A stretch of 64,000 nucleotides of DNA. Source: Candidatus Acididesulfobacter guangdongensis (lineage in GTDB: Bacteria > SZUA-79 > Acidulodesulfobacterales > Acidulodesulfobacteraceae). Positions 15,653 through 63,935 of the stretch are shown here, piece by piece. Location of the stretch: assembly GCA_004195045.1 (NCBI GenBank), contig SGBC01000002.1, positions 434,001 to 498,000 on the forward strand. The letters run 5' to 3'. The position numbers were made by a program, and so were the translations under genes. The notes under the pieces are model-generated. The model was not told where the DNA came from, did no database searches, and saw only the letters and a program-made list of their open reading frames with translations. Positions within the stretch are counted from its first letter, which is position 1. The number at the start of each line of letters is the position of its first letter.

Positions 15653-15661
15653 TGATATAAT
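15653..15661 (+). promoter_or_regulatory. Extended -10 promoter of the AbiE-like locus
   Basis: TGATATAAT, an extended -10 box, overlaps the end of the split gene 8 bases before the antitoxin ATG. No good -35 box is present. The same TGATATAAT box stands in front of the inverted antitoxin copy at 10762-10770. The very short leader would give a nearly leaderless transcript. Confidence 0.5.
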
Positions 15662-15669
15662 ATAAGATT

Positions 15670-38363: not shown

Positions 38364-38448
38364 ATAAATATAAATATTATAAAATTTAATGATATAATAA
38401 AAAAATTATATGTTTCATAATTATAATTTGAATAAACTAGGAGGAAGT

Positions 38449-44709: not shown

Positions 44710-45090
44710 ATGAACAGACTAATTTTATTTTATTTAAACCACGATAAGTTATTTTCGATTTTATCGCTTCTAATTGTCGGTATAAGTTCTTATTTTGCTT
44801 TTACCGCAACAGCCCACGCTTACATTCAGCCGATTAATCCAAGTACAAATGTTGGAAGCATTAATACTGGCGCTACAGGCATATTAAACACTGCAATTAC
44901 TTGGGTCTGCTACAGATTAGCACCGGCAACGACTGTATTAGGTATTGTAAAGGGTTTATATGATATTAAATTTCATAGGCCTGAAGCTGCAAGGAAAGCT
45001 TTTATAACGGGCGTTGCAGGCGCAGGCATAATGATAGCTCCGACAATAGTAAATGCAATAATCGGAATTGTAAATGGTAATGGTGTTTAA
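44710..45090 (+). CDS. VirB2/TrbC-like major pilin
   Basis: A 126-residue precursor with a long signal peptide ending AHAY (cut near residues 36-38), followed by two hydrophobic helices (about 60-80 and 100-122) joined by a basic loop (KFHRPEAARKAF), the classic VirB2/TrbC pilin layout. The position directly before VirB3- and VirB4-like genes supports this. It would polymerise into the conjugative pilus. Confidence 0.75.
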   Translation: MNRLILFYLNHDKLFSILSLLIVGISSYFAFTATAHAYIQPINPSTNVGSINTGATGILNTAITWVCYRLAPATTVLGIVKGLYDIKFHRPEAARKAFITGVAGAGIMIAPTIVNAIIGIVNGNGV

Positions 45091-45092
45091 AA

Positions 45093-45395
45093 ATGTTAAA
45101 CGAGTATCCTGTTTACGATATCTCAAATAAAGTCTTAAAGTTCGGCCTTTCGCTTTATGAGTGGCTTTTAGTTTTAGGCGTAGCAATTGTAGAGTTCGAG
45201 CTTTTTCACGCCGGTTTTCAAATGATTTACGATTTGCTTTCTTTAGCTTTGCTTGTGGTCGGTTTAAAGGTTTATAAAATCGGAAAACCTGACCAATACA
45301 TAAAAAGTTTAATACTTTATTACTGGCGCAGCAAAATATATTACGTGCCTTATAAATTCGAGAAAAAAAATGATAACATCGGCTTTAAATTATAA
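45093..45395 (+). CDS. VirB3/TraL-like inner-membrane protein
   Basis: A 100-residue protein with two hydrophobic segments (about residues 22-60) and the conserved start YPVYDISNKVLKFG. Size and position between pilin and VirB4 are those of VirB3/TraL, a channel component working with VirB4. Its end overlaps the VirB4 start by 26 bases. Confidence 0.7.
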   Translation: MLNEYPVYDISNKVLKFGLSLYEWLLVLGVAIVEFELFHAGFQMIYDLLSLALLVVGLKVYKIGKPDQYIKSLILYYWRSKIYYVPYKFEKKNDNIGFKL

Positions 45396-47859
45396 CTTTA
45401 AAGATAAGACGGAAGCTGCTTATAACCTTTTGAATTTACTGAATATCGAAAAAGATTCAGTAATTTCGATAGATGGCTCTCATTCTGCTATTTATAGGAT
45501 TACGGGCTTTGATTATTATTTAAAGACCGATAATGCGCTTAACAGGGTAGCCGATATTTGCGATTTATTTTTATCTCTTCTGCCGGAGGATTTTATTTTA
45601 ACTTTTATCTATAAAATAAAGGATACCGATCCGGATTTTATTGAAAATTATCGCAGTTCATCTAAGCCTCCGCATGATTTTAAATTTATAAAAGATAAAA
45701 AAATCGAAGATTTAAAATCTCGCATAATAAGAAAGGTAGATATTTATTTATACGCTACGGTAAAATCTTTTGATTTAGATGTAGCGTTGCAAACAAGCTG
45801 GTTTGCAAAAGCTGGAAGTCTTTTTAAAAACCGCCCTAACGCAATAATAAACCATGACAAATCTATTGAAAAATTAACTAATTTCTCAAGAAATCTATCG
45901 TTTTTATCGTCGAGTTTCGGAATAAAAATTGCAAGGCTTAAAGATAAAGAGATTTTTGATTATCTTTTTAAAGAATTAAATCCTGGTCGTAATATAGACC
46001 CGCCGTCTTATGACGAGGAAGATAAAAATTATACGCTGCGGTCTCTTTTATCATATTCACCTGTTTATGTTTCTAAGAACTCACTAAGCGTAGGGCAGAA
46101 GAATTATAAATTGATAAATATGCATAAGGCTCCGAAAGGTATTAATACGTTTGGAATAACGCAGCTTTTAAATTTTGCCGCTAAATATTATTTTTTTAAT
46201 TATACCGTTGCCGTAAGTTTTTTTATTCCAGAGCAGGAACGTAAATATAAAGATATAAGAACCGATGCAAACGTAAAAAGAAGCATGTCTGAAGCTACCA
46301 TAGGCGATTATGACGATTATAAAGGTTTAACGGAAACAGAAGTTATCGAAAATTTATTAAAATCGGTTGCTAAAAGCAGTAAAAAATTTGTGGATGTTTC
46401 ACTTTCCTTTAGAGTCGAAGACGATATAAAAAAAGATGCCGAAACCATCATACAGGGATGTAAATATTTTTCTAATATGGAAGTTATAGACGACCAATTA
46501 GAATACTTGAATATATTTTTATCATATTTACCAGGGACGCAGCATTTAAATTTTAGAAAAAAGACGGTTTCGTCTAAAGAAGCCGGTTGTTTTTTTCCGC
46601 TACATCAGGGCTTTACAGGAACTTCTAATGCGCCTATAGCGCTGTTGAATAGCAGGCTTGAGCCGGTTTCTTTAGACCTTTTTAATAATTTGCTGCCGGC
46701 AAAACATGCTAATATTTTCGGCAAAACGAGGTCTGGTAAAGGTTTTATGATGAACGGTTTTTTGACGCATTGTTTGTTGTCTTCGGATGATATTGATATC
46801 GTAGGAGTCGATATCGGGGGCACATACGAGAAATTTACGAGATTATTTAACGGAAATTATATAGATATAGAACTTGAAGGAGAGTACAATCTAAACCCTT
46901 TTCCATTTAAAAAAGATATTGTGCTTCCCTCAGGCGATTATAACCCTGAAATTTTAAATTTCTTATCGCATATTGTAGCTATGATGGTTCTGCCTAACGG
47001 AGTGCCGGAGCCTAACGACTATACTATAATTTTAAGGTCAATATCTTCGGCATACGACGCTATGACTTTAGACGAGAATCCTACATTTTCAGACGTAAAC
47101 AACGTGCTTTTTAATTACAAAGAAGGAAGAGACGTTACGGATAAACAAAGAGCCCTTCTGTTCGGCAAGAATATGTTTAGGTGGACTGACATTACGAGCC
47201 CTTATCTCAATCTTATAAACAGAAAAGGGACTATTGATTTATCTAACCGTATAAATGTTTTCGATTTGCAAAAAATTAAAGACTATCCGGAATTATCTAA
47301 ACTTATCTTTGCGATAATAAAAAATTTAACTTTTAAAAAAATGTATGACAGAAGCCGAAAAGTAATAATGTTTTACGACGAATGCCATCAATTCTTGGAT
47401 GATCCGGAAATAGGCAAACTTATTTCTTTTTTATATAAAACATCTGCAAAATGGGATGTTGCGATGTATTCTATTTCGCAGCAGCCGAGCGATCTCTTAA
47501 AAACGCAGGTAGGCAGGGATATTATTGCGAATTCAGGTATTAAAATTTTTCTACATCTCGATATCGACAATGTCACAATTGACGATTTAGCGGCTTGCGG
47601 TCTTAACGATAAAGAAATAGCTACCGTCAATAATTTACAGACCGAAAAAGGTTATTTCTCCGAATATTTTATAAAATTCGGAGAAAACTCTACTGTAATA
47701 AGAAACGAACCATCTTCTTTTGAATATTGGCTTTATTGCAAATCAAACGAAGATTGGCTTGTAGAAAATAAAATTAATCAAGAATACCCCGAAAAGTCTT
47801 TAAAAGAACGTTTAGAAATACTAGCTGAACGTTATCCGCACGGACCTTACGGGGTATAA
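45370..47859 (+). CDS. VirB4/TraC-type conjugation ATPase
   Basis: An 829-residue ATPase. Walker A NIFGKTRSGKGF lies near residues 447-458, Walker B VIMFYDECHQF near 662-672, then ISQQPSDLLKT. The N-terminal 400 residues form the TraC-like domain that interacts with VirB3 and the pilin. It is distinct from the orphan VirB4 at 10776, with little visible similarity outside the motor. The complete set around it makes this the working ATPase of the transfer apparatus. Confidence 0.9.
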   Translation: MITSALNYNFKDKTEAAYNLLNLLNIEKDSVISIDGSHSAIYRITGFDYYLKTDNALNRVADICDLFLSLLPEDFILTFIYKIKDTDPDFIENYRSSSKPPHDFKFIKDKKIEDLKSRIIRKVDIYLYATVKSFDLDVALQTSWFAKAGSLFKNRPNAIINHDKSIEKLTNFSRNLSFLSSSFGIKIARLKDKEIFDYLFKELNPGRNIDPPSYDEEDKNYTLRSLLSYSPVYVSKNSLSVGQKNYKLINMHKAPKGINTFGITQLLNFAAKYYFFNYTVAVSFFIPEQERKYKDIRTDANVKRSMSEATIGDYDDYKGLTETEVIENLLKSVAKSSKKFVDVSLSFRVEDDIKKDAETIIQGCKYFSNMEVIDDQLEYLNIFLSYLPGTQHLNFRKKTVSSKEAGCFFPLHQGFTGTSNAPIALLNSRLEPVSLDLFNNLLPAKHANIFGKTRSGKGFMMNGFLTHCLLSSDDIDIVGVDIGGTYEKFTRLFNGNYIDIELEGEYNLNPFPFKKDIVLPSGDYNPEILNFLSHIVAMMVLPNGVPEPNDYTIILRSISSAYDAMTLDENPTFSDVNNVLFNYKEGRDVTDKQRALLFGKNMFRWTDITSPYLNLINRKGTIDLSNRINVFDLQKIKDYPELSKLIFAIIKNLTFKKMYDRSRKVIMFYDECHQFLDDPEIGKLISFLYKTSAKWDVAMYSISQQPSDLLKTQVGRDIIANSGIKIFLHLDIDNVTIDDLAACGLNDKEIATVNNLQTEKGYFSEYFIKFGENSTVIRNEPSSFEYWLYCKSNEDWLVENKINQEYPEKSLKERLEILAERYPHGPYGV

Positions 47860-47872
47860 GGAGGGTGAAAAT

Positions 47873-48073
47873 ATGAAAAAATTATTATTGTTAGGATTAT
47901 TATTAATTCCGATTTTAGGGTTTACGGGATGCATGGCATTACAAAAACCTATGGATAATATGATGGGGGTAAATCCAAAAACAGGTTGTGCCTACGGAGC
48001 AAATTGTAGTCAGGTACCTAATTCCAACATTTCACAACAAAATCAAATCAATAAAACTTTAGCAAATAAGTGA
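47873..48073 (+). CDS. Small lipoprotein (VirB7 position)
   Basis: A 66-residue lipoprotein, signal MKKLLLLGLLLIPILGFTGC with lipobox FTGC; short mature part with TGCAYGANC. The size fits VirB7, which anchors VirB9, but there is no distinctive motif. Its signal peptide is almost the same as that of the lipoprotein at 38449. Confidence 0.65.
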   Translation: MKKLLLLGLLLIPILGFTGCMALQKPMDNMMGVNPKTGCAYGANCSQVPNSNISQQNQINKTLANK

Positions 48074-48084
48074 GGCTAATTATT

Positions 48085-49164
48085 ATGCTAAAAAAATTTA
48101 AAAAAATTTCAGTTTTTATAGTAATAATGACTCTTTCTATGTATTTATCTCTATCGCTTGCAAACACTAGAAGAGCTTATGCATTAGCAGTACCCTCAAT
48201 TTCAGGAGTTGTAAATGCTGCCAGTTCTTTGGCAGATGCAGGGAACGCTTTGGTACAAGCAGGAAACACGATAGGAATGGTACTGCCGCCTGTAGGTCCG
48301 TTCGGCCTAGCCACAAGTGTAAACCAGTTTTTATCTGGAAAATTTAAATCGTTAATGAATATGGGAAAAGCAATGCAGTCTTTAGCTAAACTTCAAGTTG
48401 CTTTGTCTAAGGTTCAGTCGTCTATTAACGCCGCTACTAACGCCGTAACTGACGTTTATAACGCAGAAGGCGATATAACTAACGCAAAAGATTCTTTATT
48501 ATCGCAGGGAATAACGCTTAATAACTGCAGCGGAGGACAGGGCGTTATGGGGTCCGTTGCGGCGGAACAATGCACGGACGATTCGATTAATAATAATATT
48601 GCGGAACTCCAGGGTACATATTCGGATTTAGGCGGTCAGGCTGGAATTTCTGGAAACGGTATTTCCTCGGCTTTAGCTGGCAGTTCTTTAAATCAATCAG
48701 CGTTACTTTCGGGCGCGAGTAATTTTCAATATATAAGCGAAAACGGTCTTGCCGGTTCAGTTGCTATATCTCCTGCAAGCAATTTATGTCAGGACGAAAT
48801 AGCGGCAGGCATAGTATCTAACTCGTCTCAATGTACTGAAAGTTATAAAAGAGCAATGAATTCTCAACTTAACGATAATTTGTTTGTTGACAGCACAAAA
48901 GGTATAGCGGCAGGCAACTCAATGATTGCAACGGGGTCAGGTTTTTCTAAAAACGTTTCAAACATCAGCGGCTCTTATGATTTACAGCAGGTAGAACTTT
49001 TAAAAATGCTAGCGGAAGAAAATGCTCAGCAGATTAAAGCAACAGGAGAACTAACAAAACAAATAGCTGTTGCTAATCAGACTAAAGCAGCTAAAAAAAT
49101 AAATAATTCAACTGTTCCTGGTGTTTCAAAGTTACCGGAACCGCCCAGCACTTTCATATATTAG
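48085..49164 (+). CDS. VirB5/TrbJ-like secreted protein
   Basis: A 359-residue protein with a signal peptide (VFIVIMTLSMYLSLSLANT, then a cut after the ALA near residue 37) and a long Ala/Ser/Asn-rich helical body. The C-terminal segment (LLKMLAEENAQQIKATGELT then KQIAVANQ) is like the terminal helix of VirB5/TrbJ. Four Cys occur as separated pairs. It would be a pilus-tip or periplasmic component. ATG 48085 has GAGG upstream and is preferred to a GTG at 48070. Confidence 0.6.
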   Translation: MLKKFKKISVFIVIMTLSMYLSLSLANTRRAYALAVPSISGVVNAASSLADAGNALVQAGNTIGMVLPPVGPFGLATSVNQFLSGKFKSLMNMGKAMQSLAKLQVALSKVQSSINAATNAVTDVYNAEGDITNAKDSLLSQGITLNNCSGGQGVMGSVAAEQCTDDSINNNIAELQGTYSDLGGQAGISGNGISSALAGSSLNQSALLSGASNFQYISENGLAGSVAISPASNLCQDEIAAGIVSNSSQCTESYKRAMNSQLNDNLFVDSTKGIAAGNSMIATGSGFSKNVSNISGSYDLQQVELLKMLAEENAQQIKATGELTKQIAVANQTKAAKKINNSTVPGVSKLPEPPSTFIY

Positions 49165-49172
49165 AAAAAGAT

Positions 49173-50510
49173 ATGAAAAAACTTATTTTATTTTTATTAT
49201 TGTTTGTATCTTTAGTTTTGATTTTTGCGGGTAAAGCCTACGCAGGAGTGTGTCCAGCCGGTCAGGTTGATACTAGTTATGGCGGGTGTGTTCCGGCGAC
49301 AACGGCAAAGGCAGTGCCGGATGCAAATGGCTCTGTCGGTTCATTTTCTTCATGGTTAAAAAAAACTGTCAAAAATCCTAACGGTATTTCAACCGTTCCT
49401 GCAGACATATGGGGAACTACGGGATTAGCAGGAACTGCTGAACTAGCGCCGTTTATGGAAAAACTGGGCTACGCAATATTAATATTCAGTTTTATTTACA
49501 ATTTATATATGAATCTTTATAGATATTCAGTTGGTTTAGAGAGCCAGGCAAAACCTTACTTTCATTTATTTTTTTCTTTTATTCTCTCTGCATCGTTTAT
49601 TTATGCCTGGAGTTATAATTCAGGAGGTTCTGGAAATATATTTTATGAATATTTGTCAGTGGTTAATAATGTGTACAATTCCATCGTAAATGGGATAATG
49701 GGGGCGTCCGTTATAGTCGGCTTATTGCATAATATTCATCATACGACGACGGTTATTACAAATGAGGTACATAATACTAAAACAGGCGGTTGGAGTTGGA
49801 ATCCTTTGTCGTGGGCATCTGCTGCAGTGGGTGCGGTCGTAGGTTATCTTATTAAATCGATTGGGGAATTAATAATAACTATAGCTTTGAGTTTATTATA
49901 TTTTTTATATTTAATCATAATCTATCTCGTTTATTTAGTACAGTTATTTTTCTTAGGCACTTTGTATGCAGTTTTTCCTATAATTTTAGGAGTGAATTTA
50001 GGAGACTACGCCAGCAATATGAAAGTACTTCAAAACTGGACGAAATGGTTCGTAGAAGTATCATTTTGGGGAATATTTATATCGCTTGAATTTACTATAT
50101 TTGCTTATATAGTCGGCAATCATTTTGCCGATTCAAATTCAATAATATCGCCGTTAACAGCTGTTCTTCTGCTTATAATAATGACTTTTTTACCGCTTGC
50201 CGGACCGATATTAATACATAAAATTTTTGGACTACATGCGGCCAGCAGTCATGCTAATTTACAAAACCATATCAAAGGCCTTACCGGTCGTAACAATAGC
50301 AGTGATAGTAATAGCGGTAAAAGCCAAGAAAAAGCTAAAATGGCCGCTAAAGCTATGGCCACAGGAGGGGCTTCCGTTCCTGCAGATATGACTAAAGAAG
50401 GTTTAAAAAAAGGAGTGCAGGAAGCAAGTAATACAATAAAAGAACAGGGCGGTACGTCCGGCGGAGGAATAGCGCCTGGAGCTCCTACTAAAAGAAACGC
50501 ACAAGCATAG
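49173..50510 (+). CDS. VirB6/TrbL-like polytopic membrane protein
   Basis: A 445-residue protein with an N-terminal signal segment, a Cys-containing loop (VCPAGQVDTSYGGCVP) and at least six membrane segments between about residues 95 and 350, then a hydrophilic Ser/Lys/Gly-rich tail. This is the VirB6/TrbL layout, an inner-membrane channel protein. Position between VirB5- and VirB8-like genes agrees. Confidence 0.75.
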   Translation: MKKLILFLLLFVSLVLIFAGKAYAGVCPAGQVDTSYGGCVPATTAKAVPDANGSVGSFSSWLKKTVKNPNGISTVPADIWGTTGLAGTAELAPFMEKLGYAILIFSFIYNLYMNLYRYSVGLESQAKPYFHLFFSFILSASFIYAWSYNSGGSGNIFYEYLSVVNNVYNSIVNGIMGASVIVGLLHNIHHTTTVITNEVHNTKTGGWSWNPLSWASAAVGAVVGYLIKSIGELIITIALSLLYFLYLIIIYLVYLVQLFFLGTLYAVFPIILGVNLGDYASNMKVLQNWTKWFVEVSFWGIFISLEFTIFAYIVGNHFADSNSIISPLTAVLLLIIMTFLPLAGPILIHKIFGLHAASSHANLQNHIKGLTGRNNSSDSNSGKSQEKAKMAAKAMATGGASVPADMTKEGLKKGVQEASNTIKEQGGTSGGGIAPGAPTKRNAQA

Positions 50511-50519
50511 AGGATAAAT

Positions 50520-51137
50520 ATGGACAACAAAAGACTTTTTAATGAAATATGGGGTTCTTTGAAATTAGAAAATCTAGGTTATAAGATTTTAGCGGGAGCG
50601 ATGTTTTTAGTAGCATTATCGGCGCTGGCTTTATCATATTACGCTTACTCTATAAACCGAGTGCCTCTGGTGATAAGGGTTAATGAAGCCGGTAAAGCAC
50701 AAGTGCTTAAAATGACCGCTTTTAAACATCCGGCAGGGAAAGGCGAAATATATTACTTTGCAAAATCATTCTTGAGAGAAATGGTAGGATTTAACAGTTT
50801 CACCGTTAGAACGCAGATCGCTAGGGCGTTAAACAAAATGAGCCCTTCTTACGCAAAATATATAAATTTAACTATAAAAAGGACTAAATACATTAAAAAT
50901 GCCGTCGCAGCTGACGTGCAGTTTCAATTAACAATTAAAAAACTTGAGATTAGAAACCAGACTAAACATCATATTGTGTTAAGGGCTATATTGACAGTTA
51001 ATATCATTGCAAATCAAACTAGCAAAATCGAGCAAACTGAAAATTATATGGACAGAATTATTCTGAAAAGAATAAAAAGGTCTGTGAATTTTCCGTTTGG
51101 GCTTGAAGTAGTCAATTTTACGGAAACTAAACTATGA
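50520..51137 (+). CDS. VirB8/TraE-like bridge protein
   Basis: A 205-residue protein with a short cytoplasmic N-terminus, one membrane segment (ILAGAMFLVALSALALSYY, about 23-41) and a periplasmic NTF2-like domain. RVPLVIRVNEAGKA and the mid-domain YYFAKSFLREMVGFNSFTVR are like the VirB8/TraE pattern. It joins inner and outer parts of the channel. Overlaps the VirB10-like gene by 4 bases. Confidence 0.75.
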   Translation: MDNKRLFNEIWGSLKLENLGYKILAGAMFLVALSALALSYYAYSINRVPLVIRVNEAGKAQVLKMTAFKHPAGKGEIYYFAKSFLREMVGFNSFTVRTQIARALNKMSPSYAKYINLTIKRTKYIKNAVAADVQFQLTIKKLEIRNQTKHHIVLRAILTVNIIANQTSKIEQTENYMDRIILKRIKRSVNFPFGLEVVNFTETKL

Positions 51138-52276
51138 TATTTAAAGACAAAAAAATTAAAGAATTAGAAAAACAGCTCGAAAATCCTAATCTCACGGATG
51201 AAGACAGGACTGCATTAGAAAAACAGCTTGCAACTCTTCAGTCGGAAAAATCTTCGCATTGGGGTTGGATTATAGTAATTGTAGCAATATTTTTGATTTT
51301 TATTTTTTCAAAGTTTATAGGTTTTTTTGTGAACAGTAAAAAAATTACAGTTAAAAAAAATAATAAAAAAATAGAAAAACCTGTCCGTTATAACGCAAAA
51401 GATTTTATTACTGCTCCGACTAAAAAGAAACATCGTAAAGCCGCTTATTCAAACTTAGCAGGCGAGATAAATGTTTTAAAAAACAAATTGAAAAACCAAA
51501 GGGTTACGCGCTTTAATCCTTCAAATGCTGCAGGTGCGGTCAGCAGCGCAGCCGGTTCTCATTCTATTTCGGTATTTGTAAACCCGAAATATTTACAAAA
51601 AATTAAAGTTTCGGAAGGATATAAAAGCCCAGTTCAATTAGCAAATGCCGCATTAAAATATCCAGGAGCAAACGGCGTATATAATCCTTACGCAAAAACC
51701 GCTAACGGCGCAAGAACAAATATTTTAGTTCCTGAAGGCACGGTAGTTTCGGCATATACGAAATATAAACTCTACTCTTACAATACGAGCGTGCCGGTTA
51801 TAGCGGTAGTTTCGGCTCCTTACAGTTTTAAAGGCAAGGTCGTCATACCGGCAGGATATGAATTTATGGGGTCGGTTGCAGGCCATACAAAATCAAGATT
51901 AGATATAAAGTTTACGCAGATAATAAATCCTACAAACGGGGAATCTTTAAGCGTAAATGCTGTTGCCGTTATGGAAAACGGTTCGGCCGGAATTACCGGT
52001 AATGCCCATTACCACGTAATTAAAAACGTTCTTGCGGGTATAGGTTCCGGAATTTTAGGCGCTGCAGCTATGTTTGCCGGAGGCGGTTCGGCAGTTAATT
52101 CGACCGGCGCTTATACTTATCAAGATACTTTACGTCAGAACGTAGCCCAAAACGAAATATCTTATGCTCAGAACAGTCTCAACAACGCTCAGCAGAGTGC
52201 AAACCAGGTAGTCATTACTTTACCGGCCAAGACGCCTATAAAAATAATGTTTTTAAAACCGCTTACGGGGAAATAA
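51134..52276 (+). CDS. VirB10/TrbI-like protein
   Basis: A 380-residue protein: acidic cytoplasmic start, one membrane segment (GWIIVIVAIFLIFIFSKFIG, about 37-56), a Lys/Ala-rich periplasmic stretch and a C-terminal beta-barrel domain with ILVPEGTVVSAYTKYKLYS, VIPAGYEFMG, ITGNAHYHVIKN and the closing VVITLPAKTPIKIMFLKPL. It is the energy-sensing scaffold linking the ATPases with the outer-membrane pore. The Pro-rich region is shorter than in VirB10 itself. Confidence 0.85.
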   Translation: MIFKDKKIKELEKQLENPNLTDEDRTALEKQLATLQSEKSSHWGWIIVIVAIFLIFIFSKFIGFFVNSKKITVKKNNKKIEKPVRYNAKDFITAPTKKKHRKAAYSNLAGEINVLKNKLKNQRVTRFNPSNAAGAVSSAAGSHSISVFVNPKYLQKIKVSEGYKSPVQLANAALKYPGANGVYNPYAKTANGARTNILVPEGTVVSAYTKYKLYSYNTSVPVIAVVSAPYSFKGKVVIPAGYEFMGSVAGHTKSRLDIKFTQIINPTNGESLSVNAVAVMENGSAGITGNAHYHVIKNVLAGIGSGILGAAAMFAGGGSAVNSTGAYTYQDTLRQNVAQNEISYAQNSLNNAQQSANQVVITLPAKTPIKIMFLKPLTGK

Positions 52277-52278
52277 TA

Positions 52279-53133
52279 ATGAGTTTAGAAAAAATCAATA
52301 AAATCAAAAAAGAACTGGACGATTTCTACGTCCAGCGCACCGAAACGATAAATATGATTTTATTAGCTATTTATTCAAGGAAAAATGCTTTTTTGATAGG
52401 CGAGCCAGGGCTTGCAAAAACCGATATTTTAAAAGCGTTTTCGGAATCGGTCGAAGGCTTTAAGTTTTTTGAATATCAAATGAGTTTTTCGACAGAGTTG
52501 AAGGATTTACTTTCTATGAATGTTCAGGGAGGCATAGGCATAGACAACTGCCACATAGCCTTAATAGACGAGTTTTTTAAGGGAAACCCGTCTGTGTTAA
52601 ACAGTCTTCTTGCGATTTTAAACGAAAAAATAATATATGTACCTGAAAAAAAAGTTATACCGATATTAACAGTTTTCGCGACGTCTAACGAAAAACCGGA
52701 CGCAACTGAGGGAACATCTATGCTGGCGCTTTACGACAGGTTCTTATTAAGGCAGGAAGTTATGCCTTTAAGAGATGAATCCGACTTTAAGAAACTTATG
52801 CGCATAAATAAACCCTTTGCTCCGTCTCCGGAAGCAATTTTAACTTTAGATGAACTTGAAAAAGATTATGAAGATATTCAAAAAGTTAGTATACCGGATG
52901 AAATAATTGATATTCTTTTTTCAATTAAAAAGGAAATACTTGTAAGGCAGGTTCACGTGAGCGACAGAAGGTTTAGAGATTTAGTAGCTATACTTAAAGT
53001 TTCCGCTTTTTTCAGGGGAGACAACGAGGTTAAAAAAGAAGATATTTATAACGTTAAATCAAGTCTATGGACTTACAGTTCTGATATAAAAACCGTCGAC
53101 GTGGTTGTCAATAAAATATTACAAGCGATTTAA
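52279..53133 (+). CDS. MoxR/RavA-type AAA+ ATPase in the transfer operon
   Basis: A 284-residue AAA+ ATPase of the MoxR group: Walker A FLIGEPGLAKTDI (about residues 32-44), Walker B IALIDEFFKGNPS, sensor 1 VFATSNEKPD and the lid domain with VHVSDRRFRDL. MoxR ATPases usually act with a VWA-domain partner to mature protein complexes; none is encoded nearby. It begins 2 bases after the VirB10-like gene and is followed by VirB9-like, so it is an integral part of the operon. An unusual component for a conjugation system. Confidence 0.85.
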   Translation: MSLEKINKIKKELDDFYVQRTETINMILLAIYSRKNAFLIGEPGLAKTDILKAFSESVEGFKFFEYQMSFSTELKDLLSMNVQGGIGIDNCHIALIDEFFKGNPSVLNSLLAILNEKIIYVPEKKVIPILTVFATSNEKPDATEGTSMLALYDRFLLRQEVMPLRDESDFKKLMRINKPFAPSPEAILTLDELEKDYEDIQKVSIPDEIIDILFSIKKEILVRQVHVSDRRFRDLVAILKVSAFFRGDNEVKKEDIYNVKSSLWTYSSDIKTVDVVVNKILQAI

Positions 53134-53154
53134 AAAACAATAGAGGGAGCGATT

Positions 53155-54054
53155 ATGTTTAAAAAAATTGCATTTATGATTATATTAGCGATATCATTTT
53201 GGACGGCAAATGCCTTCTCGATGGGATATTCTAATTTAAATCACTACAGTTATTACAGCCGTAAGAAGGTTCATAAGCTGACTATTAACAAGAACGTAGT
53301 TTATAAGCTTAATGTCGCTTACGGTTACGTTTCAGTCGTAACATTGCCGGTGATACCTTTATTCGTTACTATCGGCAATCCTTCTGACTTTCAATATAAG
53401 GTCTTGGGTCCGCAGATTTTCGTCCAAGCTCAGGCTTATAACAAAAAAGTTTCAACCAATATGGAAGTTTCAACCAAATACGGATTGATTAACATCGAAA
53501 TTAAAATTACATCTAAAAAAGATATTGTCTTTAATTTAGACTTGGCTAAACCAGGAAATGGTATATTTTACAAGAATTATTTAGAGCATAAACTTAATAT
53601 TTTAAAGACAAAGCTTCAAAAAAAGTATTCGGCAAAATATCAAGGCCTTGTTGCAATGAAAAACAAATTGGCAAAGAATAAAGCCTATGTCGAGAAATTA
53701 ATATTATCGATAAATAAAAAGACTATCAACGCTTCGGCGAATAAAAATAATGTATCTTTCACCATTATTTATAAATCTAAAATAGGCAACAAATATTACA
53801 TTAAATATATGGTTTCGAACAGCACTAACAATTATATCGTAGTTCATGATTTATATCTTTACGATGCAAATTCGTCATGGTACGGTTCTTCATCTAAAAA
53901 AGAGGTAAGAATATTAAATCCGGTTTCAAATTTAAAACTAATGCCGCGCGAAGTCTATAAGGGATATATCGTTTACGATAATAAAAATGCGAATGATGTT
54001 TCTGCACATCTATATTTAAAAGGAAAATTAATCATTATTAGAGTACAAATATGA
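53155..54054 (+). CDS. VirB9/TrbG/TraK-like outer-membrane channel protein
   Basis: A 299-residue exported protein (signal FMIILAISFWTANAFS). The N-terminal domain has YKLNVAYGYVSVVTLPVIP, FVTIGNPSDFQYKV and TNMEVSTKYGLINIEIKI, the beta pattern of VirB9/TrbG. The C-terminal domain (YIKYMVSNSTNNYIVVHDL, then PREVYKGYIVYD) also matches. It would form the outer-membrane ring with VirB10 and the lipoprotein downstream, whose gene overlaps by 4 bases. Confidence 0.65.
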   Translation: MFKKIAFMIILAISFWTANAFSMGYSNLNHYSYYSRKKVHKLTINKNVVYKLNVAYGYVSVVTLPVIPLFVTIGNPSDFQYKVLGPQIFVQAQAYNKKVSTNMEVSTKYGLINIEIKITSKKDIVFNLDLAKPGNGIFYKNYLEHKLNILKTKLQKKYSAKYQGLVAMKNKLAKNKAYVEKLILSINKKTINASANKNNVSFTIIYKSKIGNKYYIKYMVSNSTNNYIVVHDLYLYDANSSWYGSSSKKEVRILNPVSNLKLMPREVYKGYIVYDNKNANDVSAHLYLKGKLIIIRVQI

Positions 54055-54689
54055 AAACTAAAAAAAATATCATAATATCGCTGTTGTCTTTAATATTTTT
54101 GGTTTCTGCACTATCAGGCTGCGGGTATAATTCTTATTATGCAACTGGAGCGGCAGGGACTGGTTTAAGTTTAAATCAGGCATTAAGATTAAACAGGATT
54201 ATGTTTAATTATTTAGATATTCCTGCTTTAAAATATTCTATTTTAACCCATCCTGCCAAACAGGAGATGGCTGATAAAAATTATTATCAGCCATCTCCTG
54301 TTATCAAACATTTAAGTGCAAATAAAGTCAAAAAAATGCGCGAAAACAAAGAGCAAAGAAACGGAGATAAGCAGAGCGGTGCTTATAAGATTAAAACAAT
54401 CGGCAGTAAATTATTTATTCAAATATTTAGAAAAGGAACGTTTAATATCGATAAGTTGTTCAATATTAAAAAAATTACCATAAATGTTGAAAAAATAAAA
54501 TTCGACAAAGGTTATGAAGTTGTAACGCTCTTATTAAAAAATAACAAAGGAGAAGAAACGATAAGCGAAAATTTTAAATATTCTAACGCAGGAAAGGTAT
54601 TTAAAATTAAAAAGTATGAAGTTATCGAAAATTTAACGGTTGCGCAAAAATATAAGAGGGGCATGACTTTATGGCTAAAATTCTCATAA
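54051..54689 (+). CDS. Lipoprotein (TraV/VirB7 type position)
   Basis: A 212-residue lipoprotein: signal IIISLLSLIFLVSALSGC with lipobox ALSGC, then a basic linker (VKKMRENKEQRNGDKQSG) and a beta-rich C-terminal domain. The coding sequence contains a perfect 19-bp inverted repeat (54259-54302). It overlaps the preceding VirB9-like gene by 4 bases. Probably anchors the outer-membrane ring; family not named with certainty. Confidence 0.65.
   Translation: MKTKKNIIISLLSLIFLVSALSGCGYNSYYATGAAGTGLSLNQALRLNRIMFNYLDIPALKYSILTHPAKQEMADKNYYQPSPVIKHLSANKVKKMRENKEQRNGDKQSGAYKIKTIGSKLFIQIFRKGTFNIDKLFNIKKITINVEKIKFDKGYEVVTLLLKNNKGEETISENFKYSNAGKVFKIKKYEVIENLTVAQKYKRGMTLWLKFS
54259..54302. repeat. Perfect 19-bp inverted repeat inside a lipoprotein gene
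   Basis: Left arm 54259-54277, loop AAATTA, right arm 54284-54302; every base of the arms pairs (AACAGGAGATGGCTGATAA and its complement). It codes for the segment KQEMADKNYYQPSPVI. Confidence 0.95.
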
Positions 54690-55108
54690 CGCTTATTATA
54701 AGCATATCGGTTTTAACTATAAAAACCGCCGCTTACGGCTATTCTCACAACAGAATAATAAATGCCGTTGTAGAGTCTTCAAGGGAATTTAATATCCCGA
54801 CAGGCCTCATCTTGTCCGTTATGCGAGAAGAAAGCGATTTTAATATTAACGCCGTTAGTCCTAAAGGTGCAGTAGGTTTAATGCAGCTTATGCCTTCAAC
54901 TGCTGAAAGTATAGGCGTAAATCCTTACGATCCTGTTCAAAACGTGATAGGAGGCGTATATTATTTGAGATATTGCTTAAATTTAAAAGGCGGAAACGTC
55001 GCGCTTGCCCTTGCTTGTTATAACGCCGGACCAAACGGCGGCGTACCGAGTTCTACTTTTCAATATATCAAAAACATAGCTACGTTTTATAGGGAGATAT
55101 CAAGATGA
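54671..55108 (+). CDS. Lytic transglycosylase (VirB1/PilT type)
   Basis: A 145-residue exported SLT-family enzyme. The catalytic Glu lies in SVMREESDFN (about residue 57), followed by PKGAVGLMQLMPSTAESIG, VNPYDPVQNVIGGVYYLRY and ALACYNAGPNGG, the standard motif order. It opens the peptidoglycan layer for the secretion channel or pilus; R64-type pilus systems and VirB systems each have one. Overlaps the lipoprotein gene by 19 bases. Confidence 0.9.
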   Translation: MAKILITLIISISVLTIKTAAYGYSHNRIINAVVESSREFNIPTGLILSVMREESDFNINAVSPKGAVGLMQLMPSTAESIGVNPYDPVQNVIGGVYYLRYCLNLKGGNVALALACYNAGPNGGVPSSTFQYIKNIATFYREISR

Positions 55109-55923
55109 CTAAAAAGAAGAAAAAAAAGAAACTGGAACCTGTTTCTCCGGCTTTAAATTTTGTCAAATTACTATTTTCTTTTATAGGCTGGCTTTTAATA
55201 TTTGCGGCCGCAGGCGGATTATTATTTTTAGCGGTAAAACACGCTTTCGCCGCATCTTATAAAAACGGAGTCTGCACATTCAGTCGCCCGCTCGGCTATC
55301 GTTATTATAACAGGAGAACAGGACAGGGTTACGATCCTTATTATAGCGCTTTTGTTAATAAGAATATTTTCAATGAATATTTTAGCGGCAACGCTTCTAA
55401 TATGAATTTGGATAATGTAAATGTCATTAGCAATAACGGCATATTTGTTTACAAAAATACTATGACGGCCGGTGGATATTCCGCTGTTTACGATTACGTA
55501 TGGGAAAATAATTCCTGGGAATATACGGAGGATTTAGATATAGCCCAGGCTTCTTCATTGAACATTCAATACATGATTCCGGATGAGTTGGGGTTTGGAC
55601 CGATAATTCCAATATGGAATAATAAAGATTATTACGAGTGGTGGATTAATAACGCATTAAATTACTATCAGACACAGCAACCAGCATGGTTTAGTTATAA
55701 CAGTCAAATTGCGGAAGGTTTTGACGCGTGGGAATGCGAAAGGGCTTTTAGGGGTTATCCTATAACTCAAATAACATATACGAATAGAGAAGGCAGGGTT
55801 TACACAAGGAGCTTATTAACAGATAAATTTCCTAAAATTCAACCGTCTTCTGCCGGTTCCTGTCCTCCTCTGCCTATTTCTGAATTGTTCGGTTTTGCAT
55901 GGTGCGTTAAGCATGGATTATAA
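55105..55923 (+). CDS. Membrane-anchored protein of unknown function
   Basis: A 272-residue protein: very basic start (seven Lys), one membrane segment FIGWLLIFAAAGGLLFLAV (about 27-45), then an extracytoplasmic Tyr/Trp/Asn-rich domain (GYRYYNRRTGQGYDPYY, DYYEWWINNALNYYQ). Four Cys could form disulfides. No family recognised. Sits at the junction of the VirB and pilus sets, so it may connect them or act at the surface. Confidence 0.5.
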   Translation: MTKKKKKKKLEPVSPALNFVKLLFSFIGWLLIFAAAGGLLFLAVKHAFAASYKNGVCTFSRPLGYRYYNRRTGQGYDPYYSAFVNKNIFNEYFSGNASNMNLDNVNVISNNGIFVYKNTMTAGGYSAVYDYVWENNSWEYTEDLDIAQASSLNIQYMIPDELGFGPIIPIWNNKDYYEWWINNALNYYQTQQPAWFSYNSQIAEGFDAWECERAFRGYPITQITYTNREGRVYTRSLLTDKFPKIQPSSAGSCPPLPISELFGFAWCVKHGL

Positions 55924-55933
55924 GGAGTTTAAA

Positions 55934-56308
55934 ATGCTTAGAATATTAACTATAGCGATTATGATTTTAAGTTTAATTTTAACGGCTGCAAACGCTTCGG
56001 CGTTTAAATTGCCGAAACTTAAAATTATTTACATCAAACCACAGTCTTATTCTGCTCGCATAGTCGGCAAGACTAACGGTCTGCCGGTTTTAACGGTGGA
56101 CTTCGAGGGTAGGCCTTTGTGGAAAGTCCTGCAGGACGTCTCGAACGATACCGGTTATGTTTTTACGACTAAAGGCGTAAACTTGGCAAAAAAAGTAAAT
56201 TTAAAGGGCAGGTATAATTTTGCGGTCCTGCTCTCCAAATTGTTTAGCGGGAGAGGGGAAAATACAACGGTAAATTTAAAAACTAAGAGGGTGAGCGTAT
56301 GGCGCTAA
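55934..56308 (+). CDS. Exported STN/secretin N-domain-like protein
   Basis: A 124-residue exported protein with signal peptide TIAIMILSLILTAANASA and a domain reading LTVDFEGRPLWKVLQDVSN then VNLKGRYNFAVLLSKLF, the pattern of STN/secretin N domains. ATG 55934 is chosen because AAGGAG precedes it. Likely a periplasmic accessory of the secretin encoded at 58696 (PilL-like role). Overlaps the next gene by 10 bases. Confidence 0.6.
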   Translation: MLRILTIAIMILSLILTAANASAFKLPKLKIIYIKPQSYSARIVGKTNGLPVLTVDFEGRPLWKVLQDVSNDTGYVFTTKGVNLAKKVNLKGRYNFAVLLSKLFSGRGENTTVNLKTKRVSVWR

Positions 56309-57345
56309 TTTATATAGAACAGTCCGGAATTAAATTTGAACTTAAAAACGGCGAGAGAACCGTATCCGCTCAAGGAGTAGAGGGACTATCCGGACTAGTT
56401 TACGTAACCGGAAGCGAAATTAAAAGATACCCGAAGAATGCCGAAAAAATAGCAAGAAGGGTAAAGAATAAGTCTTATATAATAGACAACGAGTTTGTTT
56501 ATTATTATAAAGGCGAAGATATCGACAATTTTAAAGACTGCCTGCTTTCGCCATATCAGATTCTCGTCAATAAATTTTTAGAACAAAAAAATATATCTGG
56601 GAATATATTGTTTATTGACGGCGATAAAGACGTGGTAATTGTTTCTCTAATTAAAGACGGTGAATTCAAGGAGCTTTTAATAAGCAATGCGTCTTTATTT
56701 AATGAGACGTTATCTTCTATCAATAAGAAGTATCTTCAAAAAGATTTGAAGCTTGATATCGTCGTTATAAACGATGAGTTTTATAAAACCGCTTTTAAAA
56801 ATACTCCCGTTACAGTTTTAAGTCCTACGGAAATACTCGAATATGCTCAAGATTTTCAAGCGCCGGTATTTAGAAGAATTGAAGATATTAAAAAGAAAAT
56901 TCAGAAAGAAAAAGATAAAAAACTTAATATGATTTTGGTTTTTGCGGTTATTATCTTTATTTTAAATTTAGTGGTTTATTTTGCTATTAAAAATGCTGTA
57001 AATTCTGTTTCTGTTATGAATAATAGTCTGGTTGTAAAAAATGGAGTTTTAAAACAGAGGCTTAATTTTGAAATAGAAAAAAAGTTTTTATCGTTTACGA
57101 GAAAAAATATGCCTATAAGTTTAAAAAAGACATTATTGAAGATAGTCAACGTTAAAAATATAAAAATAAATTCTATTAATGCGACTAATTCTAATTTTAA
57201 CATAAAGGGAGAATTTCTTGGCGGCTATAGAAATTTCGTAAAAGGCTATAACAAACTAAAAAGAATAATGGATAGCGATGCGGTAAATTACGTCGTGTCC
57301 GCCGGCGGAAAGGCTTCTTTTGTAATTAAAGGAGAAATTAGATGA
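56299..57345 (+). CDS. PilO-like pilus biogenesis protein
   Basis: A 348-residue protein: a 190-residue cytoplasmic domain, a coiled coil (RRIEDIKKKIQKEKDKK), one membrane segment MILVFAVIIFILNLVVYFAI (about 214-233) and a periplasmic tail. The fold order of a PilM-like domain joined to a membrane segment corresponds to PilO of IncI1 (R64-type) pili, an inner-membrane platform protein. Assignment rests mainly on layout and neighbours. Confidence 0.6.
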   Translation: MALIYIEQSGIKFELKNGERTVSAQGVEGLSGLVYVTGSEIKRYPKNAEKIARRVKNKSYIIDNEFVYYYKGEDIDNFKDCLLSPYQILVNKFLEQKNISGNILFIDGDKDVVIVSLIKDGEFKELLISNASLFNETLSSINKKYLQKDLKLDIVVINDEFYKTAFKNTPVTVLSPTEILEYAQDFQAPVFRRIEDIKKKIQKEKDKKLNMILVFAVIIFILNLVVYFAIKNAVNSVSVMNNSLVVKNGVLKQRLNFEIEKKFLSFTRKNMPISLKKTLLKIVNVKNIKINSINATNSNFNIKGEFLGGYRNFVKGYNKLKRIMDSDAVNYVVSAGGKASFVIKGEIR

Positions 57346-57923
57346 TTAAAATAATAATCTCTGCGCTTTTAATAGTTTTAAGCGTTTTTATATATGCAAA
57401 GTTTTCAAAGCCTTTAATGAGCGTATATCATTTAACTAAGTCCGAAAATACTGCTTTAGCGGGAAAGACCTTAAATTATGAAAGGCAAATTTCTATATTA
57501 AAAAATATCAAGAAAGTAAAAATTATTTTACGAAAGCAAAAGACTTCTACATATATGTTTACGCTTTTGTCGTTCGTAAATTATTTAAAAAGTAAAGGCT
57601 TTTCGGTAAAGCTTAAACTTAATAAATTAATGCAGACTAAACCTGTAATACATACTATCCCTAATCCTCAAGTCATAAATAAGCGCGTACAAGTTAAACC
57701 GGTTAGTTTGGGAGGATTTAGCCCTTATGAAACTCGGACTAAGTTTGCGGGGGTTAAAAAGATAAATATCGTATTAAGTTTTAAAGGTTATTACGGGCTT
57801 GTCCCGATGCTTACCGTAATGGAAAAATTGTATGTTTTGTTTCCTATAAAATTCGTTAATTTTACAATGAGTAAAAAAAGTACCGTAATTAATTTTAATC
57901 TATATAGTTTTAAGGGGGTTTGA
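57342..57923 (+). CDS. Inner-membrane platform protein (PilO/GspM-like)
   Basis: A 193-residue protein with one N-terminal membrane segment (IIISALLIVLSVFIYAKF) and a periplasmic alpha/beta domain ending VINFNLYSF. Length and order match the second small bitopic protein of type IV pilus platforms. Overlaps the preceding gene by 4 bases. No specific motif. Confidence 0.5.
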   Translation: MIKIIISALLIVLSVFIYAKFSKPLMSVYHLTKSENTALAGKTLNYERQISILKNIKKVKIILRKQKTSTYMFTLLSFVNYLKSKGFSVKLKLNKLMQTKPVIHTIPNPQVINKRVQVKPVSLGGFSPYETRTKFAGVKKINIVLSFKGYYGLVPMLTVMEKLYVLFPIKFVNFTMSKKSTVINFNLYSFKGV

Positions 57924-57924
57924 A

Positions 57925-58686
57925 ATGGATATAAACGATATAATCGAAGAAGGTCAGGAAGAACGCGGGCAAAGAGAACCGGAAGGGATTAAACCTAAGA
58001 GAAAAAATAAAATTAAGTTCAATAAGAAATTATTATTGATCGTTTCCGTTATTGTATTGATAGGAGGCGCGGCTGCATATTTTTTATTATTTAAGAGCAG
58101 TCGTCCTATTATACCTGTAACGGGCAGAATAGTAACTCCTCCAGTAAATCAGAGTTTTTTGTTTAATAAAACTTTAAATAATAAAATACAGAATAAAATA
58201 TCTAATCCTTCTTTAAAAAGTACGGTAGAGAGTAATGCTTCAGTAACAGATTTACCTATAAAAAATAAAACCGCACAACCTGTTAAAGGTAAGGCTGCCT
58301 CCAAAGTTAAAAAAGCCAATAATACGTTAAACGACCTTTTTACCGTTAAATATAAACATAAGGCGAAAAAAACTAATATGCAGGGAGTACCGAATATGCC
58401 TCCTAACGCAAATGTTCCTAATGTTCCGGCTATACCTTTTAATCAGAATTTGCCTAATTTCAATTTAAAGGGCATGGCTTCAAAAATTAAGAATATGCAA
58501 GGTTTATCAAGCGGAAGCAGTTTTAACGTAAGCGGATATTCAGGCGGTTACGTGATAGCAGAGTGCGGTAAAAGCACTAAATATTTAAAAGCCGGTCAGA
58601 GCGCCTGCGGCTATACCTTGTTAAAGGCAAACTCGAACGATGCTACTTTTTCGCATAACGGCAAGTTTAAAAAGATTTCTTATTAA
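57925..58686 (+). CDS. PilP-like bitopic protein
   Basis: A 253-residue protein: basic N-terminus, one membrane segment (LLLIVSVIVLIGGAAAYFLL, about 37-56), a long disordered Asn/Pro/Lys-rich linker (MPPNANVPNVPAIPF) and a short C-terminal domain with SGGYVIAECGKSTKYLKAG. This architecture fits PilP, which ties the inner platform to the secretin. It starts 2 bases after the previous gene. Confidence 0.6.
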   Translation: MDINDIIEEGQEERGQREPEGIKPKRKNKIKFNKKLLLIVSVIVLIGGAAAYFLLFKSSRPIIPVTGRIVTPPVNQSFLFNKTLNNKIQNKISNPSLKSTVESNASVTDLPIKNKTAQPVKGKAASKVKKANNTLNDLFTVKYKHKAKKTNMQGVPNMPPNANVPNVPAIPFNQNLPNFNLKGMASKIKNMQGLSSGSSFNVSGYSGGYVIAECGKSTKYLKAGQSACGYTLLKANSNDATFSHNGKFKKISY

Positions 58687-58695
58687 GGGGGTTTT

Positions 58696-60192
58696 ATGAA
58701 AAAAATATTAATTACTTTATTATTAATTTTATTTAGCGTTTCTCCTGCTTTTGCCGGGACGGTTACGATAATAAATCCGGTTTTACATATTATTAAAAAA
58801 CCAGTTCCTGAAGCTTTAAGGCAAAAAACTTCTTTAGAAGGAAATTTAACTATTAATGAAGCTTTGTCTTTACTTACAAGGGCAACGGGAATACCGATTA
58901 TTATAATTCATTCAAGTTTTATAAATAATAACAAAAACAGTTATTACTACATCCACAAACCTCTTTATATGATATTAAATGCCGTCATTAAAGATAACGG
59001 TTATGTTTATAAATATAAGAACGGTCAGATTAAGGTTTACGGCGAAATAGCCGAGACCTTTAATTTGCCGGTTTTTAATATAGATAACGCTTTTCAGGCT
59101 ACGACAGGAGTCAGCAATAATAATAATTTAACGAACGGACAAAACGGGGTTAACGGTACCGCAAATACGGCGACTACACAGGCTGCTTCCGCTTCTCCCG
59201 TTTCCAGTCAGCAGACTCTCCAGACCGGCACGGCTAATAATCCCGGCGGGCAGATTACGAGTTCGATGTCTCTTACAAAAACTGCCGTTCATTATATAAC
59301 GCAGATGTTAAAACCGTTGGTGTCCAAAAAAGGCGTATTCGGCGTAAATGCCATGCAGGGAATAGTTTACGTTAAAGATAAACCGTCAAACGTTTTTGCA
59401 GTGGCTAAATGGGTTAAAAAGATAAGGAAAAATCTTGCGGAAGCCGTTTGGCTTAAGGTGCAGATTTTAGACGTTACTTTAAATAATTCTACGCAAGTAG
59501 GCATTAATTGGAACGCCGTTTTTAGCAACGCTTTTAAATCTAATCCGGCGGGACTATCCGCCGTTACGATAGGCGCTAATCTTGCTTCTGGGGCGGGTAT
59601 CGCTTCGGGAGCTCCTTCTATCGAGTTTGCTAATAGCGCCGGAACTAATTCGGCAATACTAGAGGCATTAAAAACGCAGGGGACGGTAGATATATTGTCC
59701 GAACCCACTTTGATAGTTCCTAACGGTGAGACGGGAGTAATTAACAGCAGTTCGATATCTAATTATATTCAGACGGTAGAAAACATTTCTACAGGTCTTA
59801 CGTCGTCTCAGACTTATCCGGTAATAGCGCAGGTATCCGCAGGGTTATCGACCGCTTTTACGCCGCATATAAATAAGAAAAAAGGCATGATAACCGTCGT
59901 TATAAATTTTTTAGATAACAATATTACGGGATATAACGATTTTACCGTATCCGGTACTAATTTCGACGAGCCGATAATTCAGTCGAAAACGTTGTCCGAC
60001 ATTATAAGAGTTCGTAATAATCATACAGTTATTATGGGCGGGATTATTACGACTAATAAAAATAAACAGAATTACGGAGTTCCGCTCTTAAGCGATATTC
60101 CGGTATTAGGACTTTTATTCGACGGAGTAAATAATACTTATGAAAAAGACGACCTTATCATGATGATAACGCCGAAAATAATTAAATATTAG
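58696..60192 (+). CDS. Secretin of the type IV pilus
   Basis: A 498-residue outer-membrane secretin. Signal peptide ILITLLLILFSVSPAFA; STN-like N domain (LEGNLTINEALSLLTRATG), a Ser/Thr/Asn-rich linker (about 140-190), and the secretin core from about 250 with VWLKVQILDVTLNNSTQVG, LSEPTLIVPNGETGVI, and the C-terminal VIMGGIITTNKNKQ and YGVPLLSDIPVLGLLF. It forms the pore for the pilus (PilN in R64). No lipobox is present, unlike R64 PilN. Confidence 0.9.
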   Translation: MKKILITLLLILFSVSPAFAGTVTIINPVLHIIKKPVPEALRQKTSLEGNLTINEALSLLTRATGIPIIIIHSSFINNNKNSYYYIHKPLYMILNAVIKDNGYVYKYKNGQIKVYGEIAETFNLPVFNIDNAFQATTGVSNNNNLTNGQNGVNGTANTATTQAASASPVSSQQTLQTGTANNPGGQITSSMSLTKTAVHYITQMLKPLVSKKGVFGVNAMQGIVYVKDKPSNVFAVAKWVKKIRKNLAEAVWLKVQILDVTLNNSTQVGINWNAVFSNAFKSNPAGLSAVTIGANLASGAGIASGAPSIEFANSAGTNSAILEALKTQGTVDILSEPTLIVPNGETGVINSSSISNYIQTVENISTGLTSSQTYPVIAQVSAGLSTAFTPHINKKKGMITVVINFLDNNITGYNDFTVSGTNFDEPIIQSKTLSDIIRVRNNHTVIMGGIITTNKNKQNYGVPLLSDIPVLGLLFDGVNNTYEKDDLIMMITPKIIKY

Positions 60193-60200
60193 GAGGAATT

Positions 60201-60758
60201 ATGGAAAGAAAAATTAATAATCAAGATGGTTTTACATTAATAGAGATTCTAATTGCCCTTGTCCTTATCGGAGTTATGGCAGCGATCGGAGTTAGCGTAT
60301 ATACGCATGTTAATTCTACCGCCGCTACCGGCGGTATAGTCAGCAACATTCAGAAATTTGAAAGTGTTGCCGATCAGTATGCATCTATGAACTCAGGTAC
60401 TTATACCGGCATGGATGCTCAGGCTTTGCAGAGCGATGCGTTATTACCTAACGGTTGGACTGTAGAAGGTGGCGGTGTTGAAGCCGTTCCTCCGAATACG
60501 TCTACCGTTGCAGGATATTTTATAACGACAGGGGCTTTAGGAACAGGAAATTCTGCTTATGATATCGGTTTTTCCGGTACGGGTAATGGAGTAACCGATA
60601 TCATGGTTCATTCAATATGCCTTGATTTTGAGAATAAGATTGATGCATTTGAATATAACGGAGGTGTTACCACGGTTACTACGGGAGGAACTAATTGTAA
60701 CGTCATACCTACAGATAATAAAGCTATAACTGGCGCATTTTGGCTGGGGTTCGAATAA
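60201..60758 (+). CDS. Type IV prepilin (PilS-like)
   Basis: A 185-residue prepilin with the leader MERKINNQDG cut before FTLIEILIALVLIGVMAAIG; the class III signal with Glu5 of the mature protein is intact. The mature domain is Gly/Thr-rich with Cys at about 146 and 164 forming a likely disulfide, as in PilS. It is the only prepilin seen, so probably the major subunit. Its stop overlaps the ATPase start by one base. Confidence 0.85.
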   Translation: MERKINNQDGFTLIEILIALVLIGVMAAIGVSVYTHVNSTAATGGIVSNIQKFESVADQYASMNSGTYTGMDAQALQSDALLPNGWTVEGGGVEAVPPNTSTVAGYFITTGALGTGNSAYDIGFSGTGNGVTDIMVHSICLDFENKIDAFEYNGGVTTVTTGGTNCNVIPTDNKAITGAFWLGFE

Positions 60759-62368: not shown

Positions 62369-62370
62369 AT

Positions 62371-63627: not shown

Positions 63628-63935
63628 TGTTATCATTTATAATTAATAATCAACTGTATTTTATAATAGCAATAATTTTATTGTTTATTTTCTTTGCTAT
63701 TAAAGTTTATCGTTATGAAACGGAAGAAGAAAATACCGGTAACGAAGTAAATATTTTAGGTTTCGGTAAAGCGGAAGGGCTTTATTTGGTTAAAGTGGGT
63801 AAATATTATCTTGTGGCGGGAATGAAAATTAAAAGTAAGCACAAGGCTATAAAAAAGTTTATAGCGTTAGTCGAAAAAAACGGCTTCGTGCCGCCTAAGT
63901 CGTATTTTAAAATGGTAAAGGTTAAGAATTTATGA
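63627..63935 (+). CDS. Small membrane protein in the pilus operon
   Basis: A 102-residue protein with one N-terminal membrane segment (YFIIAIILLFIFFAIKVY) and a soluble domain (ILGFGKAEGLYLVKVGKYY). No family recognised. Both ends overlap neighbours (TAATG upstream, ATGA downstream), so it is part of the pilus set. Confidence 0.5.
   Translation: MLSFIINNQLYFIIAIILLFIFFAIKVYRYETEEENTGNEVNILGFGKAEGLYLVKVGKYYLVAGMKIKSKHKAIKKFIALVEKNGFVPPKSYFKMVKVKNL

Follow-up and report, generated by a model that had tools for sequence, protein, structure and literature searches.

A MoxR/RavA-type AAA+ ATPase without a linked VWA gene is encoded in the T4SS operons of one bacterial family

The type IV secretion systems (T4SSs) described to date draw their power from VirB4, VirD4 and, in many cases, VirB11; the classical gene order is virB8-9-10-11-virD4. 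The well-characterised members of the MoxR ATPases serve enzymes as chaperones that depend on VWA proteins. In classical systems VirB11, a ring ATPase, sits beneath the VirB4 hexamer and controls activation of the channel, and F-type and Gram-positive T4SSs lack it (PMC12857230; PMC8510550). MoxR rings are chaperone-like remodelers and maturation chaperones (PMC3893208; PMC9976466), and those that have been studied act on their targets through a VWA protein thought to plug the ring (PMC9976466). Here we describe a MoxR-type ATPase encoded inside a T4SS operon. The window, the whole stretch of 64,000 nucleotides that was analysed, comprises positions 434001-498000 of contig 2 in a genome of 2.2 Mb and 5 contigs. 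Its T4SS operon (44710-55923) consists of virB2, virB3, virB4, a gene in the VirB5 position, virB6, virB8, virB10, the ATPase gene, virB9, a lipoprotein gene in the VirB7 position and virB1, followed by one further secreted-protein gene. The operon and the genes linked to it are as follows:

44710-45090, + strand: putative VirB2-like pilin candidate (size, position, two hydrophobic segments, kept in relatives)
45093-45395, + strand: putative VirB3-like membrane protein (position and profile)
45370-47859, + strand: VirB4/TraC ATPase (Pfam P-loop_TraG 2e-24; NCBIfam TraC-F-type 4e-53, below the equivalog cut-off)
48070-49164, + strand: putative secreted protein in the VirB5 position (position, N-terminal hydrophobic segment, no family match)
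49173-50510, + strand: putative VirB6-like polytopic membrane protein (several hydrophobic segments; profile kept in all three T4SS types)
50520-51137, + strand: VirB8-like protein (Pfam VirB8 0.021; profile kept in all three types)
51134-52276, + strand: VirB10-like protein, TrbI (Pfam TrbI 3.7e-16)
52279-53133, + strand: MoxR/RavA-type AAA+ ATPase (Pfam, PDB sequence match, predicted fold, motifs)
53155-54054, + strand: VirB9-like protein (position and a profile built here; no Pfam match)
54051-54689, + strand: putative lipoprotein-like gene in the VirB7 position (LSGCG motif; kept in type A only)
54671-55108, + strand: VirB1-like lytic transglycosylase (Pfam SLT 1e-22)
55895-63935, + strand: cluster of type IV pilus genes directly adjoining the T4SS operon (secretin 58696-60192, pilin 60201-60758, PilB-like ATPase 60740-62368, PilC-like protein 62371-63627)
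18838-20703, - strand: VirD4/TrwB coupling protein, probably of the same element (Pfam TrwB_AAD_bind 5e-69)
21682-24630, - strand: TrwC/TraI-type relaxase-helicase, probably of the same element (Pfam TrwC 3e-44)

By their sequence matches VirB4, VirB10 and VirB1 are firmly assigned, VirB8 is weakly indicated by its Pfam match, and the VirB2, 3, 5, 6, 7 and 9 calls were made from position, hydrophobicity and profiles built here. With VirB4, VirB10, a coupling protein and genes for VirB6, VirB8 and VirB9, the system has the parts of a virB-type T4SS, and its function is likely to be conjugation because a TrwC relaxase and a TrwB/VirD4 coupling protein are encoded in the window.

Several further features of the window were recorded. 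The pilus set beside the type A (window-type) T4SS includes additional pilins and is followed by GGDEF and HD-type genes (55895-63935 in the window; 7628-11433 in locus L173), and two relatives (L042, L043) carry a diverged pilus gene set at the same place. A small lipoprotein-like gene at 38410-38694 has an 81% identical counterpart in the relative L041, where it separates virB4 from the VirB5-position gene; the window has a 66-aa open reading frame (47873-48073) at that point instead. A second VirB4 gene, of TrbE/CagE type (10776-13253, - strand), has no recognised T4SS of its own and is flanked by near-identical open reading frames (10336-10755, - strand; 15670-16077, + strand), with an IS3-type transposase at 14065-15210, and the arrangement at 10336-16077 looks like the scar of a transposition or inversion. 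The mobile element also includes a TnpB/Cas12f-like gene (29731-31260).

The ATPase gene is a 284-codon open reading frame with an ATG start (52279-53133, + strand) that begins 2 bases past the stop of the VirB10-like gene and ends 21 bases before the VirB9-like gene, so that the coordinates confirm the placement given in the preliminary description. The MoxR assignment made there is likewise upheld by the profile, sequence and fold comparisons. In Pfam the protein matches bpMoxR (2.4e-26, 92.5 bits against a cut-off of 27), AAA_5 (5e-14) and AAA_lid_8 (2e-13), the latter two also over their cut-offs, and it gives a weak MCM match (0.008). A PDB sequence search returned RavA (2e-32). The NCBIfam RavA equivalog model scored 125 bits, far short of its cut-off of 681, with a match restricted to model positions 9-302. 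An AlphaFold2 monomer model (pLDDT 86) superimposes on the RavA AAA+ core (3nbx) with a Z score of 32.7 and 2.2 A over 282 residues at 26% identity, and the fold matches that follow the RavA/MoxR and chelatase structures are mostly MCM helicases; no VirB11 structure is among the fold matches listed, an absence that says nothing about a difference in fold. The elements of a MoxR ATPase are all present, namely Walker A (GEPGLAKT, 41-48), Walker B (LIDE, 95-98), sensor 1 (N137), arginine residues R154/R158 for the arginine finger, sensor 2 (R230/R231) and the MoxR lid, and a VWA gene next door, which is usual for such proteins without being universal, is missing. The Walker, sensor and arginine residues are invariant in 31 aligned T4SS-linked homologues, and these catalytic motif columns are common to outside MoxR proteins too. 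The protein has no transmembrane segment and, in the predicted structure, no DNA-binding domain beyond the AAA+ core; of the operon products, all but this protein and VirB4 contain a hydrophobic segment. Compared with a 92% identical relative, dN is about 0.04 and dS about 1, and the dN/dS ratio comes to about 0.04 for comparisons with the two closest relatives of type A. Judged from these substitutions, the ATPase is a real gene under purifying selection.

Conservation of the slot was surveyed in 30 genomes of the window's family of apparently uncultured bacteria. VirB4 was found in 27 of them and 36 ATPase homologues in 26, and every homologue with readable flanks sits in a T4SS operon, including all three in the window's own genome (100, 49 and 35% identity). 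These operons fall into three types. Type A, that of the window (5 loci), has the order virB10-ATPase-virB9. Type B (25 loci), which brings its own VirD4, has the order virB10-ATPase-virD4-small gene-virB9 and is present at roughly one copy per genome throughout the six genera of the family (for instance at about 370000-386000 of contig C3 of genome G000, locus L038, and at L049-L054), as if inherited vertically. In type C (6 loci) VirB8, 9, 10 and 4 are encoded upstream of the ATPase. Its gene is preceded by virB6 and one more gene, with which it shares an overlap of about 30 bases; this overlapped gene encodes a lytic transglycosylase in the single locus where it was scanned, an integrase gene lies behind the ATPase in the loci scanned, and the ATPase closes the operon after virB6 and virB1 in 6 of 6. 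Wherever type A and B loci could be read on that side (28 of 28), the ATPase has VirB10 as its upstream neighbour; its downstream neighbour is VirB9 in type A (5/5) and VirD4 in type B (25/25). Slot conservation in related systems was the check that the preliminary description had proposed, and the constant slot supports its view that the gene belongs to the core transfer operon. No complete T4SS operon without the ATPase was seen in the 30 genomes. The only genome with VirB4 and no ATPase (G024) was considered as a loss and rejected as such, its contig ending after virB6 and before the slot. Two type B ATPases (L026 on G028:C20, L027 on G023:C13) are 361-367 aa long and carry an insertion of some 50-60 residues, which breaks the profile match in two near residue 180-190.

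In a maximum-likelihood tree of 31 T4SS-linked ATPases and 18 outside relatives, for which the tool warns of long branches, the T4SS-linked ATPases form one clade (support 100/99), within which types A, B and C are each a single group. Pairwise ATPase distances correlate with those of VirB4 (r 0.955), VirB10 (0.951) and VirB9 (0.948) in Mantel tests in which 0 of 2000 permutations reached the observed r, and within type B the ATPase tracks the core genes at r 0.94-0.97. Between types A and C, ATPase identity is 34-35% against 27% for VirB4. Residues L51, F99, Y120, E160, T265 and Y266 are conserved within the T4SS clade and mostly not outside it. At the level of these sequences, the comparisons show a single origin of the three ATPase groups and their co-divergence with VirB4, VirB9 and VirB10. 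That the ATPase is a constant, selected and integral T4SS part is well supported.

The preliminary description had seen no VWA partner, and this observation stands after a search of the operon, its flanks and 8 genomes. No VWA protein was found among the scanned operon and flanking proteins, VWA_CoxE had no match in the 8 genomes tested, and VWA_2 was detected in 2 of the 8, unlinked to the ATPase and, in the genome of the window, close to an ATPase of the pilus kind; six of the eight genomes have no detectable VWA. A gene of ~600 aa that follows the type B ATPase was considered as a VWA partner and rejected, since it encodes the VirD4 coupling protein. The best ATPase relatives outside the family, by comparison, pair with VWA genes in 5 of 5 neighbours tested, and such pairs were also seen in E. 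coli (ravA-viaA) and on Brevibacillus and Alicyclobacillus plasmids. The ATPase itself has no T2SSE/VirB11 domain match in Pfam or NCBIfam, and a T2SSE search of five genomes, checked closely, found no VirB11; those T2SSE proteins that pass the cut-off there belong to the T4P/T2SS kind, with open frames of 389-635 aa, or to a 287-aa fragment. The window's genome has no T2SSE protein closer than about 45 kb to its type B and C loci, and at the type A operon there is just the PilB-like ATPase of the pilus cluster, some 8 kb downstream. The usual place of VirB11, after virB10 and before virD4, is where the ATPase gene lies in 23 of 23 readable loci of type B, the commonest type; type A has virB9 next, and type C lacks this arrangement.

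The wider search took in 386 genomes, counting the 30 of the family, together with plasmids and 68 viral contigs. No MoxR-T4SS link outside the family was found in the genome set, the viral contigs or the plasmid matches inspected, the last being MoxR-VWA pairs or unlinked genes, and such a link is likely to be rare outside the family. The nearest outside VirB4 proteins belong to T4SSs of Myxococcus plasmids and of genome G061, both without a MoxR ATPase, and no T2SSE was found on two Myxococcus plasmids or on the two VirB4-bearing contigs of G061; a search of five genomes from the phylum of G061, run without a positive control, returned no match to the ATPase. From these outside T4SSs, which have neither the ATPase nor a T2SSE nearby, we conclude that the ATPase was probably added to a VirB11-less machine, or replaced VirB11 at an earlier date. 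A mobilizable Listeria plasmid (L172) encodes a RavA/MoxR-type ATPase (8995-9939) with a VirD4-like gene about 7.5 kb away; no VWA gene is annotated in the surrounding 19 kb, profiles found no T4SS core genes on the plasmid, and the protein groups with a Brevibacillus plasmid homologue that has a VWA neighbour.

A VWA-free MoxR gene that follows virB10 and precedes virD4, in systems lacking VirB11, leads us to propose that the ATPase is a dedicated, constant subunit of an undescribed T4SS branch, a third cytoplasmic ring-ATPase beside VirB4 and VirD4, and we regard it as on balance probable that such a VWA-free ring acts on the machine's cytoplasmic side by remodelling or switching it. Consisting of the MoxR/RavA AAA+ core alone and working without a VWA adaptor, it would form a hexamer docked at the inner-membrane base of the T4SS and would spend ATP on remodelling or switching cytoplasmic portions of VirB4, VirB10, VirB8 or VirD4 at channel assembly or activation, the kind of job that VirB11 does elsewhere. 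We infer the hexamer, the binding partner and the remodelling or switching role, contact with T4SS subunits being a proposal from genes and a monomer model. Several observations weigh against this proposal: the nearest outside T4SSs, without VirB11 nearby and without MoxR, indicate that a third ATPase is not obligatory in the wider lineage, the type C gene does not adjoin virB10, the PilB-like ATPase of the type A pilus cluster could supply some functions, and known MoxR proteins work through VWA partners, so that an unrecognised adaptor might exist.

A sharper form of this proposal, which we hold only tentatively, is strict replacement of VirB11, in which the MoxR ring would sit on VirB4 and run the switch between pilus building and substrate transfer by non-homologous takeover. 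The type B order virB8-virB10-MoxR-virD4 mirrors the classical virB8-9-10-11-virD4, although the outside T4SSs that lack both VirB11 and MoxR suggest that there may have been nothing to replace. VirB11 is absent from the genomes checked and is itself a ring ATPase (PMC12857230), but F-type T4SSs manage without it (PMC12857230), and the MoxR protein lacks its extra N-terminal ring domain. It is unlikely that the ATPase is instead an assembly chaperone only, maturing one subunit or the core complex once and acting outside the finished machine. Its type A position between two core-complex genes would suit such a role, and MoxR proteins are known as maturation chaperones (PMC3893208; PMC9976466), as NorQ and RavA are for respiratory enzymes; however, the VWA adaptor used by known chaperones was not found in the searches above, VirB9 and most of VirB10 are periplasmic and beyond the reach of a cytosolic ring, and the type B gene adjoins virD4. 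VirB11-like switching would fit the gene order as well as, or better than, the channel-assembly chaperone suggested in the preliminary description. The same proximity to virD4, together with the weak MCM match and the MCM helicases that make up most of the remaining fold matches, could point to a motor related in fold to MCM helicases that acts on the transferred DNA with VirD4, but this seems highly improbable, as RavA is the best match by far, the predicted structure has no DNA-binding domain beyond the AAA+ core, and no relaxase is as yet known at the type B and C loci. That a stress ATPase sits in the operon by chance, as the homologues found on plasmids and viral contigs without T4SS genes might allow, can hardly be maintained against one clade occupying the same slot of three divergent systems (28 of 28 type A and B loci), its co-divergence with the core genes and purifying selection.

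The proposed third ring-ATPase suggests a T4SS with an ATPase that has so far been undescribed. We found no report of a MoxR T4SS subunit in the open-licence literature, where a report may have gone unseen, and a T4SS review of 2025 treats the ATPases without naming MoxR (PMC12857230). It is conceivable, if rather doubtful, that a whole lineage runs T4SSs in which a VWA-free MoxR ring replaces VirB11, the first MoxR ATPase within a secretion machine. If the proposal is true, the best-known DNA transfer machine would have a new motor across three divergent T4SS types, MoxR rings would gain a secretion role without VWA, and the family would offer a natural test of the need for a third T4SS ATPase.

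Compared with known systems, the ATPase resembles E. coli RavA, whose partner is ViaA, in its AAA+ core with the RavA lid and all catalytic motifs, but at 284 against 498 aa it lacks the RavA C-terminal part beyond residue ~305, and it has no VWA partner gene, is encoded in a T4SS operon and forms a separate clade. It shares the MoxR AAA+ core with NorQ/NorD and CbbQ/CbbO, whose rings remodel a protein complex (PMC9976466); those systems need a ring-plugging VWA protein, whereas none is linked here and most tested genomes have none detectable. The machine recalls F-type/TraC-type T4SSs in that the window VirB4 is closest to the TraC-F model and VirB11 is absent, yet this VirB4 scores 180 bits, far below the cut-off of 567, and MoxR is not mentioned in the review of T4SS parts (PMC12857230). 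From VirB11, finally, the MoxR protein differs in ATPase family and in having no N-terminal ring domain, but like VirB11 it belongs to a ring-forming superfamily, its gene follows virB10 and, in type B, precedes virD4, and it would be the third T4SS ATPase.
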